Origin: Verrucomicrobiota bacterium
GTDB taxonomy: Bacteria; Verrucomicrobiota; Verrucomicrobiia; Opitutales; Opitutaceae
Assembly: GCA_016235555.1 (NCBI GenBank)
Contig: JACRKC010000069.1
Coordinates: forward strand, 62,001 to 126,000
Direction: 5' to 3'
DNA: 64,000 nt
Below the pieces are notes generated by a model that was given only the letters and a program-made list of their open reading frames with translations, did no database searches and was not told where the DNA came from. The position numbers were made by a program, and so were the translations under genes. Below, one piece after another: positions 7,262 through 61,398 of the stretch. How positions within the stretch are numbered: the stretch's first letter is position 1; each line of letters begins with the position of its first letter.

Positions 7262-7317
7262 GTAGCGGCGAGCGCCAGCGAGCCGACGCTCTTCGACTCG
7301 CTGGCGCTCGTCGCTAC
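7262..7317. repeat. Two-arm palindromic element (GTAG...CTAC)
   Basis: A 56-bp inverted repeat with 21-base arms that differ at one position, bounded by GTAGCG and CGCTAC. The arms share GAGCGCCAGCGAG with the element near 39844. It lies between convergent genes ending at 7113 and 7380, so it may also act as a bidirectional terminator. Confidence 0.75.
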
Positions 7318-20839: not shown

Positions 20840-21319
20840 ATGAAAATCCAACGTTCTCTGAGTTTTTTGCCGCGCAAAAAACCAAGCTTAGGTTTTCGCG
20901 TCGCGAAAACCTCGGGTTTCACCCTCGTCGAGCTCCTGCTCGTGCTCGTGATCCTCGGCATCCTCGCCGCGCTCGTGCTGCCGAAGTTCACCGGCCGCAC
21001 CGAGCAGGCGCGCATCACCGCCGCGCAGACGCAGATCTCCACGTTCGGCACCGCCCTTGACGCTTTCGAGGTCGACACCGGCAGCTACCCGCGCGGCCAG
21101 GACGGTCTCACGCAGTTGCTCGCGCAACCCGCCGACATCACCGGCTGGCGCGGGCCCTACCTGAAGAGCGACATCCCTCTCGATCCTTGGGGACATCCCT
21201 ATGTTTACGAGTATCCCGGCCGCGTAAACGCCAACGGCTACGATGTCCGCTCCGCCGGCCCCGACGGTCAACTCGGCACCGCCGACGACGTGGTGAATGC
21301 CTCCATCACGGCAAAGTAA
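20840..21319 (+). CDS. gspG: Major pseudopilin GspG
   Basis: 159 residues from ATG 20840 (GTG 20828 is an alternative four codons upstream). The type III leader is cleaved before FTLVELLLVLVILGILAAL; Gly26 is the -1 residue and Glu5 of the mature chain is present. The C-terminal half has the major pseudopilin pattern: DTGSYPRGQDGL, GPYLKSDIPLDPWGHPYVY and a calcium-loop-like DVRSAGPDGQLGTADD. It polymerises into the periplasmic pseudopilus. Most of the leader (residues 8-24) is encoded by two adjacent palindromes at 20862-20882 and 20891-20911, so the leader sequence itself looks like inserted DNA. Confidence 0.95.
   Translation: MKIQRSLSFLPRKKPSLGFRVAKTSGFTLVELLLVLVILGILAALVLPKFTGRTEQARITAAQTQISTFGTALDAFEVDTGSYPRGQDGLTQLLAQPADITGWRGPYLKSDIPLDPWGHPYVYEYPGRVNANGYDVRSAGPDGQLGTADDVVNASITAK
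20862..20911. repeat. Two-hairpin palindrome within the gspG leader
   Basis: Hairpin 1: GTTTTTTGC, CGC, GCAAAAAAC (20862-20882). Hairpin 2: GGTTTTCGCG, T, CGCGAAAACC (20891-20911). Both have perfect arms and related stems, with the 8-base spacer CAAGCTTA between them. Confidence 0.8.
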
Positions 21320-21959
21320 ATTGTCCGCCAAATGGGTGGTGGGGCCGGCTCTCCGAGCCGGCCTGAGTTGCAGCGTGCAATTCGCTCCCGGCCTGCACAC
21401 GTCACTCAAACCCAGGCCCGCTCGGAGAGCGGGCCCCACCTCTGCCTTCACGCTGATCGAGCTGATCTTCGTCCTGGCGCTGCTCGCCATCTGCGCGACC
21501 CTCGTCACGTCGAGCCTCGGTTCGTTTTTCCGTGGGCGCGCCCTCAACTTCGAGGCCCGTCGCCTGCTCTCCCTCACCCACTACGGCCACACTCGCGCCG
21601 TCTCCGAGGGCGTGCCGGTGGTGCTCTGGGTCAGCGTCAAGGACTCGACCTACGGCCTCACCGTGCTCTCCAGCTACAACGACGACCAGGGCGACATCCG
21701 CGCCCGGGCCTACGCCGTCGAAGCCGGGCTCACCTTGGAGATCGAGGCCGCCGATTCCACCAACCTCTCCGAGCAGGATGACGAGCGCCTCGGCCTGACC
21801 GAGGAGCTTGCCGTCATCCGTTTCAATCCCGACGGCTTTTTCGATCCGTCGAGTGTGCGCAAGATCACGATCCGTCAGAGCCCCGACAACGCGCTCGACC
21901 TGGTGCAGGCGGCCAACGGGCTCGGCTACGAAGTCCGGCCCGCCTCGGTCCTCAACTGA
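21297..21959 (+). CDS. gspH: Minor pseudopilin GspH with repeat-derived leader
   Basis: 220 residues if ATG 21297 is used (overlapping gspG by 23 bases); TTG 21321 is the other plausible start. The mature part begins FTLIELIFVLALLAICATL after Ala50, so the -1 residue is Ala, not the usual Gly. The body (about 150-220) fits a GspH/FimT-type minor pseudopilin (DERLGLTEELAVIRFNPDG). The leader is about 50 residues, much longer than the usual 6-25. Residues 14-48 are encoded by a 103-bp two-hairpin palindromic element (21338-21440), directly up to the cleavage site. Confidence 0.85.
   Translation: MPPSRQSKLSAKWVVGPALRAGLSCSVQFAPGLHTSLKPRPARRAGPTSAFTLIELIFVLALLAICATLVTSSLGSFFRGRALNFEARRLLSLTHYGHTRAVSEGVPVVLWVSVKDSTYGLTVLSSYNDDQGDIRARAYAVEAGLTLEIEAADSTNLSEQDDERLGLTEELAVIRFNPDGFFDPSSVRKITIRQSPDNALDLVQAANGLGYEVRPASVLN
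21338..21440. repeat. Two-hairpin element forming the gspH leader
   Basis: Bounded by GGTGGGGCC and GGCCCCACC. Hairpin 1 (21343-21363) has stem GGCCGGCTC with loop TCC; hairpin 2 (21415-21435) has stem GGCCCGCTC with the complementary loop GGA. It lies after the gspG stop codon and ends three codons before the FTLIEL motif of gspH. Confidence 0.85.
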
Positions 21960-22413: not shown

Positions 22414-23150
22414 ACCGCCCCCGCCTCCAGGCTCGTCGGACCACTGCGGGTTTCACGCTGCTCGAACTCCTGCTGGCCACCGCCGTGGCCGCGATCGTGC
22501 TGCTCGTGATCAACACGACGTTCTTCGGCGCCCTCCGCCTGCACAACGCCACGCACGAGAAGATCGACGACGATCTGGTGCTGCAACGCACGCTCGGCAT
22601 CATCCGCCGCGATCTCGCCGGCCTCCGGCTGCCCGGCAATCCCCAGGCCACCACCTATCAGCTCGCCGGCCAGCTCAGCACCGAGGACAACACCACGAAC
22701 GAGCTCGACAACGTCGCCGAGCGCATCACGCCCGACCTCTACACCGGCTCCGCAAAGATCGACGGCTGGACGCCGTTTTCCGAGGTGCAGATGGTCTCCT
22801 ATTTTCTCGCCGCCGCCACCGACGGCCGGCCCAACAAGGATCTCGTCCGCGTCGTCACCCGCAATCTCCTCGCGGCCACCGAACCCCTCGCCGAGCAACA
22901 GCGCCTGCTCAACAACGTCGTCGCCGCCGGCCTGCAGTTCTTCGACGGCGAAAACTGGCAGGATTCATGGGACTCCGCCACGTCCAGCACGCTGCCGGCC
23001 GCGATCAAGTTCAGCGTCCTGCTCGCCGCCCGCGACGGCTCCGCTCCACGCACGACCGACCCCGTCGAACTCGTCGTGCCGATCATCGTCAAGACCACCC
23101 AGACCGCCGCCGACGAAGCCGCCGCGGCCGCCGCGAGCTCCCAGCCATGA
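22410..23150 (+). CDS. gspJ: Minor pseudopilin GspJ-like
   Basis: 246 residues from ATG 22410. The leader MNRPRLQARRTTAG is cleaved after Gly14, and the mature part begins FTLLELLLATAVAAIVLLV. A GspJ-type beta domain follows (DDLVLQRTLGIIRRDLAGL). It is translationally coupled to gspI. It belongs to the tip complex. A possible ATG for gspK (23147) overlaps its stop codon. Confidence 0.87.
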   Translation: MNRPRLQARRTTAGFTLLELLLATAVAAIVLLVINTTFFGALRLHNATHEKIDDDLVLQRTLGIIRRDLAGLRLPGNPQATTYQLAGQLSTEDNTTNELDNVAERITPDLYTGSAKIDGWTPFSEVQMVSYFLAAATDGRPNKDLVRVVTRNLLAATEPLAEQQRLLNNVVAAGLQFFDGENWQDSWDSATSSTLPAAIKFSVLLAARDGSAPRTTDPVELVVPIIVKTTQTAADEAAAAAASSQP

Positions 23151-23217
23151 AGCCCGCGCGCGATTACACCCCACGTGGCCGGCTCGAACCGGCTGTCGCC
23201 CGCGACGCGCTTGACTC

Positions 23218-23297
23218 GAGGTGGAGCGCGTTGCCCCCGCCGCGCTTTCCGGAGTCCCGCCGTAGCCCAGCGCGTCGGGGTCAACGCGCCCCACCTC
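23218..23297. repeat. Two-hairpin element at the 5' end of gspK
   Basis: 80 bp bounded by GAGGTGG and CCACCTC. Hairpin 1 stem AGCGCG at 23225-23230/23241-23246 with loop TTGCCCCCGC; hairpin 2 stem AGCGCG/CGCGCC at 23269-23290 with loop TCGGGGTCAA, which is nearly complementary to the first loop. It falls between the gspJ stop codon and the gspK hydrophobic segment. Confidence 0.85.
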
Positions 23298-23310
23298 CAC
23301 CCGCGCCTCG

Positions 23311-24681
23311 GTGCTCATCATCGTCATGTGGGTTTGCCTCGGCCTGATCGCGCTCGCGCTCTACTTCGCCAACTCGATGAGTTCGGAACTGCGCGCGGCG
23401 GATAATCGCGTCACCGAGATCGCCACGCGCCAGGCCATCGCCGGCGCCACCCGTTACGTCGCCAATATTCTCACGCAATACGCCGCCGGTGGAGTCGTCC
23501 CGAGCCTCGACGACTACAAGGCCGAGGAACTCGAAATCGGCGACGCCGCCTGCTGGTTCATCGGCCGCAACACCGACGAATGGCCGCGCGCGCAGCCCAA
23601 CGAGCCCTACTTCGCCCTCGTCGACGAAGCCTCCAAGCTGAACCTCAACACCGCCACCTCGGCCATGATCCAGGCGCTCCCGATTCAGGGCATGACGCAG
23701 GAATTCGCCGACGCCATCGTGGCGTGGCGCAGCGCCACCAGCCAGAACGCCGCCTACAACGAAAACATCTACAGTCAGCTCGAGCAGCCGCGCCACAACA
23801 AGGGCGCCGCCTACGAGACGGTCGACGAAGTCCGCCTTATCAACGGCGCCATGCTCGATCTGCTGTTTGGCGAGGACACCAACCGCAACGGCGTGCTCGA
23901 TGCCAACGAGGACGACGGCGAGACCTCCGCCCCGCGCGACGACCAAAACGGCACGCTCCTCGCCGGCCTGCTCGAGTATGTGACCGTCTACAGCCGCGAG
24001 CCCGCCACGTCCGCCGCCGGCAGCCGGCGCATCAATGTCACCCAGCTCAACACGCTGCAAACCCGCCAGCAGCTCCAGCAACGCCTCACGCAACGCGGCA
24101 TCACCAGCCAGCGCGCCGCCCAGATCATGGCGCGCATCCCCTTCAATCAAAACCAGGGCGGCCCCGGCCAGGGCGGTCAAAACCAGCCGGCCCAGGCGTT
24201 CACCAGTGTCGCCGACTTCATGGTCTCGACCCAGATCACCGCCGAGGAATTCGCGCTCGTGCACACGGAACTCACCGCCAGCACCGCCACCAACGGCACC
24301 ACCCAGGGACTGATCAACGTCAACACCGCCAGCGCCGCCGTGCTCGCCTGCATCCCCGGAATCGGCCAGGAGAACGCCCAAACGCTCGTCAACTACCGCC
24401 AGTCAAATCCGACCGCCCTCACGTCGTTCGCCTGGCTCACGCAGGTGTTGTCCAACGGCTCCATCCGTCAGGCCGGCCGGTATATCACCGATCAATCCTA
24501 CCAGTTTTCGGCCGACATCGTGGCGGTCGGTCTGAACGGTCGCGGCTACGGTCGCGAGAAGGTCGTCTTCGATACCCGCGCCGCCACGCCGCGCATCATT
24601 TTCCGGCAGGACCTCACCTCCTACGGCTGGGCGCTCGGCGCCGCCGTGCGCCAGCTCCTCCGCCAGAATCGCGATACTTGA
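23311..24681 (+). CDS. gspK: Minor pseudopilin GspK, 5' end apparently disrupted
   Basis: 456 residues from GTG 23311 (MLIIVMWVCLGLIALALYF), a GspK-type transmembrane start followed by a large globular domain with helix-hairpin-helix-like segments (LNLNTATSAMIQALPI and NVNTASAAVLACIPGIG). The natural leader, a basic segment before SVLIIVMW, is missing. The frame has a TAG at 23263 and no ATG, GTG or TTG between it and 23311. The obvious coupled start, ATG 23147 overlapping the gspJ stop, is in another frame. A palindromic element (23218-23297) fills the interval. Either the gene uses the leaderless GTG, or it is frameshifted, or there is a sequence error. Identity is sure; the start is not. 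Confidence 0.85.
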   Translation: MLIIVMWVCLGLIALALYFANSMSSELRAADNRVTEIATRQAIAGATRYVANILTQYAAGGVVPSLDDYKAEELEIGDAACWFIGRNTDEWPRAQPNEPYFALVDEASKLNLNTATSAMIQALPIQGMTQEFADAIVAWRSATSQNAAYNENIYSQLEQPRHNKGAAYETVDEVRLINGAMLDLLFGEDTNRNGVLDANEDDGETSAPRDDQNGTLLAGLLEYVTVYSREPATSAAGSRRINVTQLNTLQTRQQLQQRLTQRGITSQRAAQIMARIPFNQNQGGPGQGGQNQPAQAFTSVADFMVSTQITAEEFALVHTELTASTATNGTTQGLINVNTASAAVLACIPGIGQENAQTLVNYRQSNPTALTSFAWLTQVLSNGSIRQAGRYITDQSYQFSADIVAVGLNGRGYGREKVVFDTRAATPRIIFRQDLTSYGWALGAAVRQLLRQNRDT

Positions 24682-47118: not shown

Positions 47119-47168
47119 TGTAGGTCGGGGTTTATCCCCGACACGTCGGGCGTAAAGCCCGACCTACA
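47119..47168. repeat. Two-hairpin element (TGTAGG...CCTACA)
   Basis: Hairpin 1 TCGGGG-TTTAT-CCCCGA and hairpin 2 GTCGGGC-GTAAA-GCCCGAC with near-complementary loops, bounded by TGTAGG and CCTACA. Lies ten bases upstream of the oxidoreductase ATG. Confidence 0.85.
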
Positions 47169-53053: not shown

Positions 53054-53119
53054 TCGTAGCCCCGGCTTCAGCCGGTTCGAAGAGACTGCGCGACATTCCG
53101 GCTGAAGCCGGGGCTACGA
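53054..53119. repeat. Perfect 22-base inverted repeat (GTAGCCCC...GGGGCTAC)
   Basis: Arms of 22 bases beginning TCGTAGCCCCGGC, perfect, with 22 bases between. Each arm also folds on itself (CCGGCT-TC-AGCCGG and CCGGCT-GA-AGCCGG). It lies 15 bases upstream of the esterase start and 25 bases after the regulator stop. Confidence 0.9.
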
Positions 53120-61340: not shown

Positions 61341-61398
61341 GTAGCGGAACGCGTGAGCGTTTCGCTCGAAGCGGCGAAAGCCTCACGGCTTCCGCTAC
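61341..61398. repeat. Two-hairpin element (GTAGCGGAA...TTCCGCTAC)
   Basis: Hairpin 1 GGAACGC-GTGA-GCGTTTC; hairpin 2 GAAAGCC-TCAC-GGCTTCC. Loops GTGA and TCAC are complementary. Bounded by GTAGCGGAA and TTCCGCTAC. Confidence 0.85.

Follow-up and report, generated by a model that had tools for sequence, protein, structure and literature searches.

GTAG REPs have been described by Di Nocera and colleagues, and GTGG is the majority tag of the GTAG-20 family of Opitutus terrae (PMC3733652). According to this account, intragenic GTAG REPs are most numerous in O. terrae and more of them are found at N-termini than at ends, and many of the N-terminal cases are viewed as possible misannotations (PMC3733652). 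The leaders of prepilins, in turn, are described as cytoplasmic, hydrophilic and variable in length, ending in Gly or Ala and being removed by prepilin peptidase (PMC10191384). The REP dimer in the gspH gene studied here resembles the GTAG REPs of O. terrae, a member of the same bacterial family, in its tag, short stem-loop units, dimeric arrangement, high copy number and position within an ORF. It differs in that the site is a prepilin leader, while the account of O. terrae doubts many of the N-terminal cases (PMC3733652). The dimer also resembles the Rickettsia palindromic elements (RPEs), which by description are multicopy palindromes translated in frame within proteins; however, RPEs are known from proteins of unrelated function, while the gspH element sits in a segment that is predicted to be cleaved off. 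The gspH leader shares with other prepilin leaders the variation in length, the Gly/Ala end and, by prediction, the cytoplasmic location and the removal by peptidase, whereas the probable mobile-repeat origin of its extra length is a feature of the present case and not of the account in PMC10191384.

The earlier note on this DNA had called the use of a prepilin leader as a landing site apparently undescribed. In the literature searched, prepilin leaders were not reported as sites for REPs, and the words “pilin”, “leader” and “signal peptide” are absent from the main text of PMC3733652, although its supplementary gene list may name prepilins. REPs within ORFs of O. terrae, and thus within the same family, were already known (PMC3733652). 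What appears to be new here is that a protein-coding REP is sited in a disposable signal segment; protein-coding REPs as such are known.

The REP dimer at the gspG-gspH locus

The window, which is the whole 64-kb stretch of DNA that was analysed, belongs to a genome of 8.03 Mb in 140 contigs, and the best-scoring relatives of its gspG gene in the named collection are Opitutaceae-like MAGs. The features of the locus are as follows.

20840..21319, + strand: gspG (PF08334 T2SSG, 105 bits), with an AAT-G codon context that gives the overlapping gspH ATG
21297..21959, + strand: gspH-like pseudopilin gene of 220 codons with a 50-codon leader (ORF; PF12019 GspH; conserved overlapping ATG)
21338..21440, no strand: REP dimer of two inverted REP units with the tags outermost (91% complementary inverted repeat; fold z -8.07)
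21339..21363, + strand: left REP unit with GTGG tag, 9-bp stem and TCC loop (match to the unit pattern with 0 mismatches)
21370..21408, + strand: spacer between the arms, within which GTG 21375 is in frame and may be an alternative start, as favoured by the codon-usage gene finder
21415..21439, - strand: right REP unit in the opposite orientation (match to the unit pattern with 0 mismatches)
21441..21464, + strand: last two leader codons (Ser-Ala) and FTLIEL motif (sequence; N_methyl profile over residues 50-70; predicted cleavage after Ala50)

The gene product has a GspH domain, which scored 21.9 bits against PF12019 in the Pfam protein scan and thus barely exceeds the cut-off of 21, and the gene is located directly behind gspG, as identified by its T2SSG domain. 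The names of the other operon genes in the window were assigned by position and similarity. The N_methyl profile scored 19.2 bits in the protein scan (cut-off 21.2) and 21.9 bits, above the cut-off, in the genome scan. As in class III signal peptides, the leader has an end of the Gly/Ala type, followed by F-T-x-x-E and a hydrophobic stretch, and a single Peptidase_A24 locus (prepilin peptidase family) was identified in the genome. Two codons, TCT GCC, separate the dimer from TTC ACG CTG ATC GAG CTG, which starts at 21447, and not three as was first reported. The Ala at position -1 was read correctly from the sequence, but the idea that it was caused by the insertion was rejected because Ala is ordinary at this position: under a motif rule with G, A, S and R as the permitted residues, it was found in 58 of 156 prepilins in set A, 10 of 27 in set B and 16 of 68 in set C of the survey presented below, and the remainder had Gly.

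The two arms of the dimer (21338-21369 and 21409-21440) are 32 nt each, 91% complementary and 39 nt apart, and each arm is itself a hairpin with a GTGG tag, a stem of GGCCGGCTC or GGCCCGCTC and the loop TCC. The RNA fold of the 103-nt element has an energy of -70.5 kcal/mol (z = -8.07), which was equalled by none of 200 shuffled sequences. With up to three mismatches, the unit pattern has 126 matches on many contigs throughout the genome, while the reversed control has none. There are 11 exact matches, including both gspH units, and 37 of the 44 copies with one mismatch bear the classical GTAG tag. Facing pairs of units were also observed among the matches listed genome-wide, and no further copy of the gspH dimer was found inside the 64-kb window. 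The element thus combines a tag and stem-loop with a high, dispersed copy number and dimers in opposite orientation, as GTAG-type REPs do; it is a GTAG/GTGG-type REP dimer and not a palindrome peculiar to gspH. Ten places in the genome score above the cut-off for Y1_Tnp, the domain of RAYT-type (Y1) transposases.

The inverted repeat and the ORF agree in placing the 103-bp element wholly within the gspH frame (ATG 21297, stop 21959), as originally proposed, and the codons that it touches are codons 14-48 of the roughly 50-residue leader; precisely, it begins with the third base of codon 14 and its final base completes codon 48 of the 50 leader codons. Without the element, the leader would have 47 nt, compared with 48 nt in the related loci L135 and L141, and the net insertion thus preserves the frame. 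At the level of the frame, the element is an in-frame insertion within a protein-coding gene, as in the RPEs.

Other repeats were also seen in the window. The gspG leader contains a hairpin (20890-20912) with a perfect stem of 11 bp and a loop of 1 nt, of which few similar copies were seen in 436 kb of the genome, and this leader exceeds in length those of most of the six orthologs compared. REP-like DNA precedes gspK at 23147-23311, with a strong inverted repeat at 23218-23297. Here, the ATG of the orthologue type (23147, overlapping the gspJ stop codon) does not share the gspK frame, and from the in-frame TAG 23263 up to and including the motif the only standard start is GTG 23311, within the motif itself. 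The explanation is either the loss of the gspK leader or an assembly error. Four additional strong inverted repeats (7262-7317, 47119-47168, 53054-53119 and 61341-61398), which carry GTAG at or close to their termini, look like members of further REP families.

The translation start of gspH in the window and its relatives

The in-frame start codons upstream of or inside the element are ATG 21297, TTG 21321, GTG 21336, GTG 21339 and GTG 21375. A start codon downstream of the element would have spoken against a coding palindrome, but there is no ATG, GTG or TTG between the element and the cleavage motif. At least the right REP unit must therefore be coding if GspH is made, unless translation begins at an unusual codon, and this is so whichever of the starts is used.

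To place these starts in context, gspH was compared across related genomes in 44 loci selected from 80 gspG matches (L135-L178 minus L173 and L177, plus L186 and L202), the others not being Opitutaceae-like. An ATG that overlaps the end of gspG, formed by the last Asn codon AAT and the following G, is present in 19 of the 44 loci, and hence in 20 of 45 genes with the window included. The 25 loci without this ATG under the rule used are outside the count of 20; in six of them, the first motif behind the match belonged to the next pseudopilin. In 18 of the 20 genes, including the window, this ATG and the cleavage motif share a frame, and these genes have leaders of 13, 15, 16, 21, 22, 27, 29, 30, 39 or 50 residues. 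In the other two, L152 and L159, the ATG is out of frame and both contain long disrupted stretches. AAT is a minority among the Asn codons (15 of 89 in eight window genes; 26% in set A), so its conservation together with the G at the end of gspG fits selection for the ATG. The two longest of the 18 in-frame leaders, those of the window (50 residues) and of L147 (39 residues), both hold REP dimers, and no leader of the same length lacking a palindrome was seen among them. The other 16 in-frame leaders have 13-30 residues, and one of these (L136, 29 residues) contains a decayed REP-like unit. Leaders may also grow by a second route, as a short tandem duplication extends the leader of L139 to 30 residues. 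In L159 (10459-10646), one of the two loci with the ATG in another frame, the gspH leader has about 60 residues and contains an imperfect internal direct repeat.

Judging from these comparisons, gspH is likely translated through the whole element from ATG 21297. The codon-usage gene finder instead places the start at GTG 21375, inside the spacer. Translation from this codon would leave the left unit untranslated and yield a leader of 24 residues that is mostly encoded by the right unit, which is within the range of the REP-free orthologs (13-30 residues). Consistently, nine of the 11 strict cases scoring at least 12 in the survey below have an in-frame start within the repeat. However, the expected fraction is 56%, so that the difference is not significant (p = 0.08) and an excess of internal starts within leader repeats was rejected. 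Furthermore, a clear Shine-Dalgarno sequence is not apparent by eye in the 18 nt that precede GTG 21375. An internal start would not require the upstream ATG to be kept in frame in 18 of the 20 genes, nor would it require the frames to be open from an upstream start. Nine repeats with a score of at least 14 end no more than 60 nt from the motif and are followed by no later start, and eight of these, including gspH in the window, are open from an upstream start, the sole exception being gspK in the window. The expected fraction, estimated from intergenic repeats placed likewise, is 28% (p = 2.6e-4). We therefore regard a start at GTG 21375 as unlikely, while giving it some weight.

Far less probable still, to the point where we give it hardly any weight, is that the element belongs to a 5' region that is untranslated or was mis-annotated, a suspicion raised by Di Nocera and colleagues about many REPs at N-termini. 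Apart from the general caution expressed in PMC3733652, this is suggested by three of the ten leader repeats counted in the survey, which have a later in-frame start. It is opposed by gspH itself and likewise by the other seven of the ten, all of which lack an ATG, GTG or TTG between the element and the motif.

Inverted repeats in prepilin leaders

Inverted repeats were surveyed in five sets of stretches with a total of 2,456,287 nt. Set A contained the 44 T2SS loci and the window, set B 16 stretches of the window's own genome that were selected for holding prepilins, and set C 60 stretches from genomes of the family that represent the best-scoring matches listed and are not random. Set D contained 14 stretches from the two genomes of L147 and L153, picked because each had one positive prepilin (counted in A), and set E six further stretches from the family. 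Repeats were scored with +1 for a match and -2 for a mismatch, with a loop of at most 60 nt and a threshold of at least 14, and gspH in the window was left out of the pooled counts. Genes were called with a purpose-written codon-usage finder and prepilins with a purpose-written motif rule, which found 27 prepilins in set B; Pfam identified 37 places genome-wide, 32 of them above the cut-off, with the window included. Each leader interval was extended to the start farthest upstream within 70 codons and may take in untranslated DNA, for which reason we also used a strict count, restricted to repeats with no later start, and a comparison per gene.

At a score of at least 14, ten repeats were identified in the 305 prepilin leaders (25,584 nt), seven of them without a later start, compared with none in 181,854 nt of mature prepilin DNA, 12 in 1,751 other genes (1,865,907 nt) and 119 in 391,617 nt of intergenic DNA; another 19 repeats that span gene edges were assigned to no class. 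The densities per kb are thus 0.39 in leaders, 0.30 in intergenic DNA and 0.0064 in other coding DNA. At this score, repeats are some 60-fold denser in leaders than in other coding DNA, and at the laxer score of 12 this contrast falls to about 20-fold. The leader density differs significantly from that of the other genes (p = 1e-13; strict count, p = 4e-9) and from mature prepilin DNA (p = 8e-10). It does not differ from the intergenic density (p = 0.46). Per gene, a repeat begins within the first 70 codons in 7 of 305 prepilins under the strict count, as compared with 2 of 1,751 other genes (Fisher p = 4e-5). The idea that the leader is a safe landing site is supported by these numbers, with leaders at intergenic density, other coding DNA far below it and no repeats in mature prepilin DNA at this score.

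The signal comes chiefly from sets A and B, as sets A-E contain 6 (5 without the window), 3, 1, 1 and 0 leader repeats, respectively. Set B alone has 3 repeats in 2,412 nt of leaders, 51 in 39,262 nt of intergenic DNA and 4 in 241,863 nt of other genes. A third-order Markov simulation of this set (299 kb) yielded no repeats with a score of at least 14, as compared with 68 in the real sequences, so a repeat as strong as the gspH element is not due to chance. At a score of 12, the simulation yielded 12 repeats, and this laxer threshold thus lets in chance repeats. The counts at a score of at least 12 were 14 in leaders (window excluded), 6 in mature prepilin DNA, 52 in other genes and 192 in intergenic DNA, and include repeats that need not be REPs, such as that in L155.

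The prepilins with leader repeats include gspG, gspH, gspI, gspJ and others, and several REP families are involved. The 39-residue gspH leader of L147 contains a different REP that starts at the gspG stop codon, the unit of which has 129 matches in its own genome and none in the reversed control. The single decayed unit in L136 is located in a leader that is the same as that of a match in G023, and six related units were identified in the latter. L153 has a REP in the gspI leader (432 matches in its own genome, none in the reversed control), and REP-like elements were also found in the leaders of gspG in L159, gspJ in L160 and other prepilins in L306 and L243. In the window's own genome, four prepilins besides gspH carry leader elements, two in L226 and one each in L232 and L233. 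The repeat in L233 reaches only a score of 12, and in one of the two L226 prepilins the element is followed by a start, seven codons ahead of the motif. The units in these leaders have 9-33 matches in 436 kb of the genome, a sample that includes four stretches selected for REPs and excluded from the survey (L237-L240), and none in the reversed control; one of the unit families has 87 matches in the whole genome, again with none in the reversed control. The N_methyl domain is located directly behind the element in all nine hosts checked, with scores above the cut-off in five of them. REP-like DNA was also seen in the leaders of L026 and L012, but these were retrieved because the search query itself held REP-encoded residues, and both contain an ATG that is located between the arms or downstream of them; they were not counted.

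The 11 strict leaders (score of at least 12) have a net charge of +5 to +11, which is compatible with the positive-inside rule. We make no claim of selection for charge on the reading frame, as the frame used is the most positive, or tied for this, in 7 of these 11 cases. In a phylum-wide search, the query was a leader peptide from L306 joined to the helix of a prepilin. Of 30 loci retrieved, nine gave no readable leader under the motif rule, and none of the 21 readable leaders had a repeat with a score of 12. Similar repeat-like peptides were noted by eye in L323, L324, L330 and L333, the query being seeded with that peptide. The occurrence of REPs in leaders is thus suggested to extend across the bacterial family, and generality beyond the family is not claimed.

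These cases bear on whether gspH has recently been inactivated, in which case the insertion would be an artefact of a dying gene. Both gspH units match the pattern without mismatches, so the insertion may be recent, and the start region of the nearby gspK is disrupted. However, the gspH frame is intact downstream of the leader, with 65% identity to the closest match, the gspH frame of L136 has remained intact despite the decayed unit in its leader, and many prepilins, from several genomes, carry similar elements within frames that are open. Recent inactivation is accordingly an improbable explanation.

The prepilin leader as a site for REPs

We consider it probable that a REP dimer was inserted in frame between the conserved start of gspH and the cleavage site, and that the leader is near-neutral ground for REPs. 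The gspK gene of the window counts against this view, as a similar element there has shifted the ATG of the orthologue type into another frame. In the scenario that we propose, a dimer of the GTAG/GTGG type, moved by a RAYT-type transposase as expected from known REP biology, would have inserted into the gspH leader; compared with leaders of 16 codons, as in L135, the net gain is 102 nt. Translation from ATG 21297 would then proceed through the element, and the resulting hydrophilic, positively charged cytoplasmic leader may leave targeting undisturbed. Prepilin peptidase would cut off the leader after Ala50, leaving the mature pseudopilin unchanged. The mature protein would be the same for any REP that is in frame, free of stop codons and inserted downstream of the start but ahead of the final codons of the leader, and REPs would thus be tolerated in the leader while being purged from most other coding DNA. 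Because the density in leaders does not exceed that in intergenic DNA, our results suggest that the leader is tolerated as a site for REPs rather than aimed at.

Selection of leader REPs for a role in regulation, for example through hairpins that couple or limit the translation of pseudopilins, would fit with the very stable fold around the start region and with the recurrence of REPs among pseudopilin genes of one operon. We nevertheless find it quite doubtful, since the leader density is not above the intergenic density (p = 0.46), many orthologs have no repeat at that place, and the REP families and their positions differ between cases. Similarly speculative, and with a low probability in our view, is the idea that REPs have been recruited as a module for leaders and translation initiation, such that a start within the loop gives long and short leaders in a ratio set by the fold, which would tune pseudopilin stoichiometry, and new leaders are repeatedly built from unrelated palindromes.

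If REPs in leaders are indeed tolerated in this manner, the leader is a definite segment of a protein in which mobile palindromes appear to be near-neutral, and N-terminal intragenic REPs of this kind are likely to be real and not annotation errors. For annotators, the gspH gene provides a warning that programs that call starts from codon statistics can misplace them in such genes, as at 21375. The REP-bearing leaders also represent natural length variants with which the needs of prepilin peptidase and the targeting machinery may be probed.
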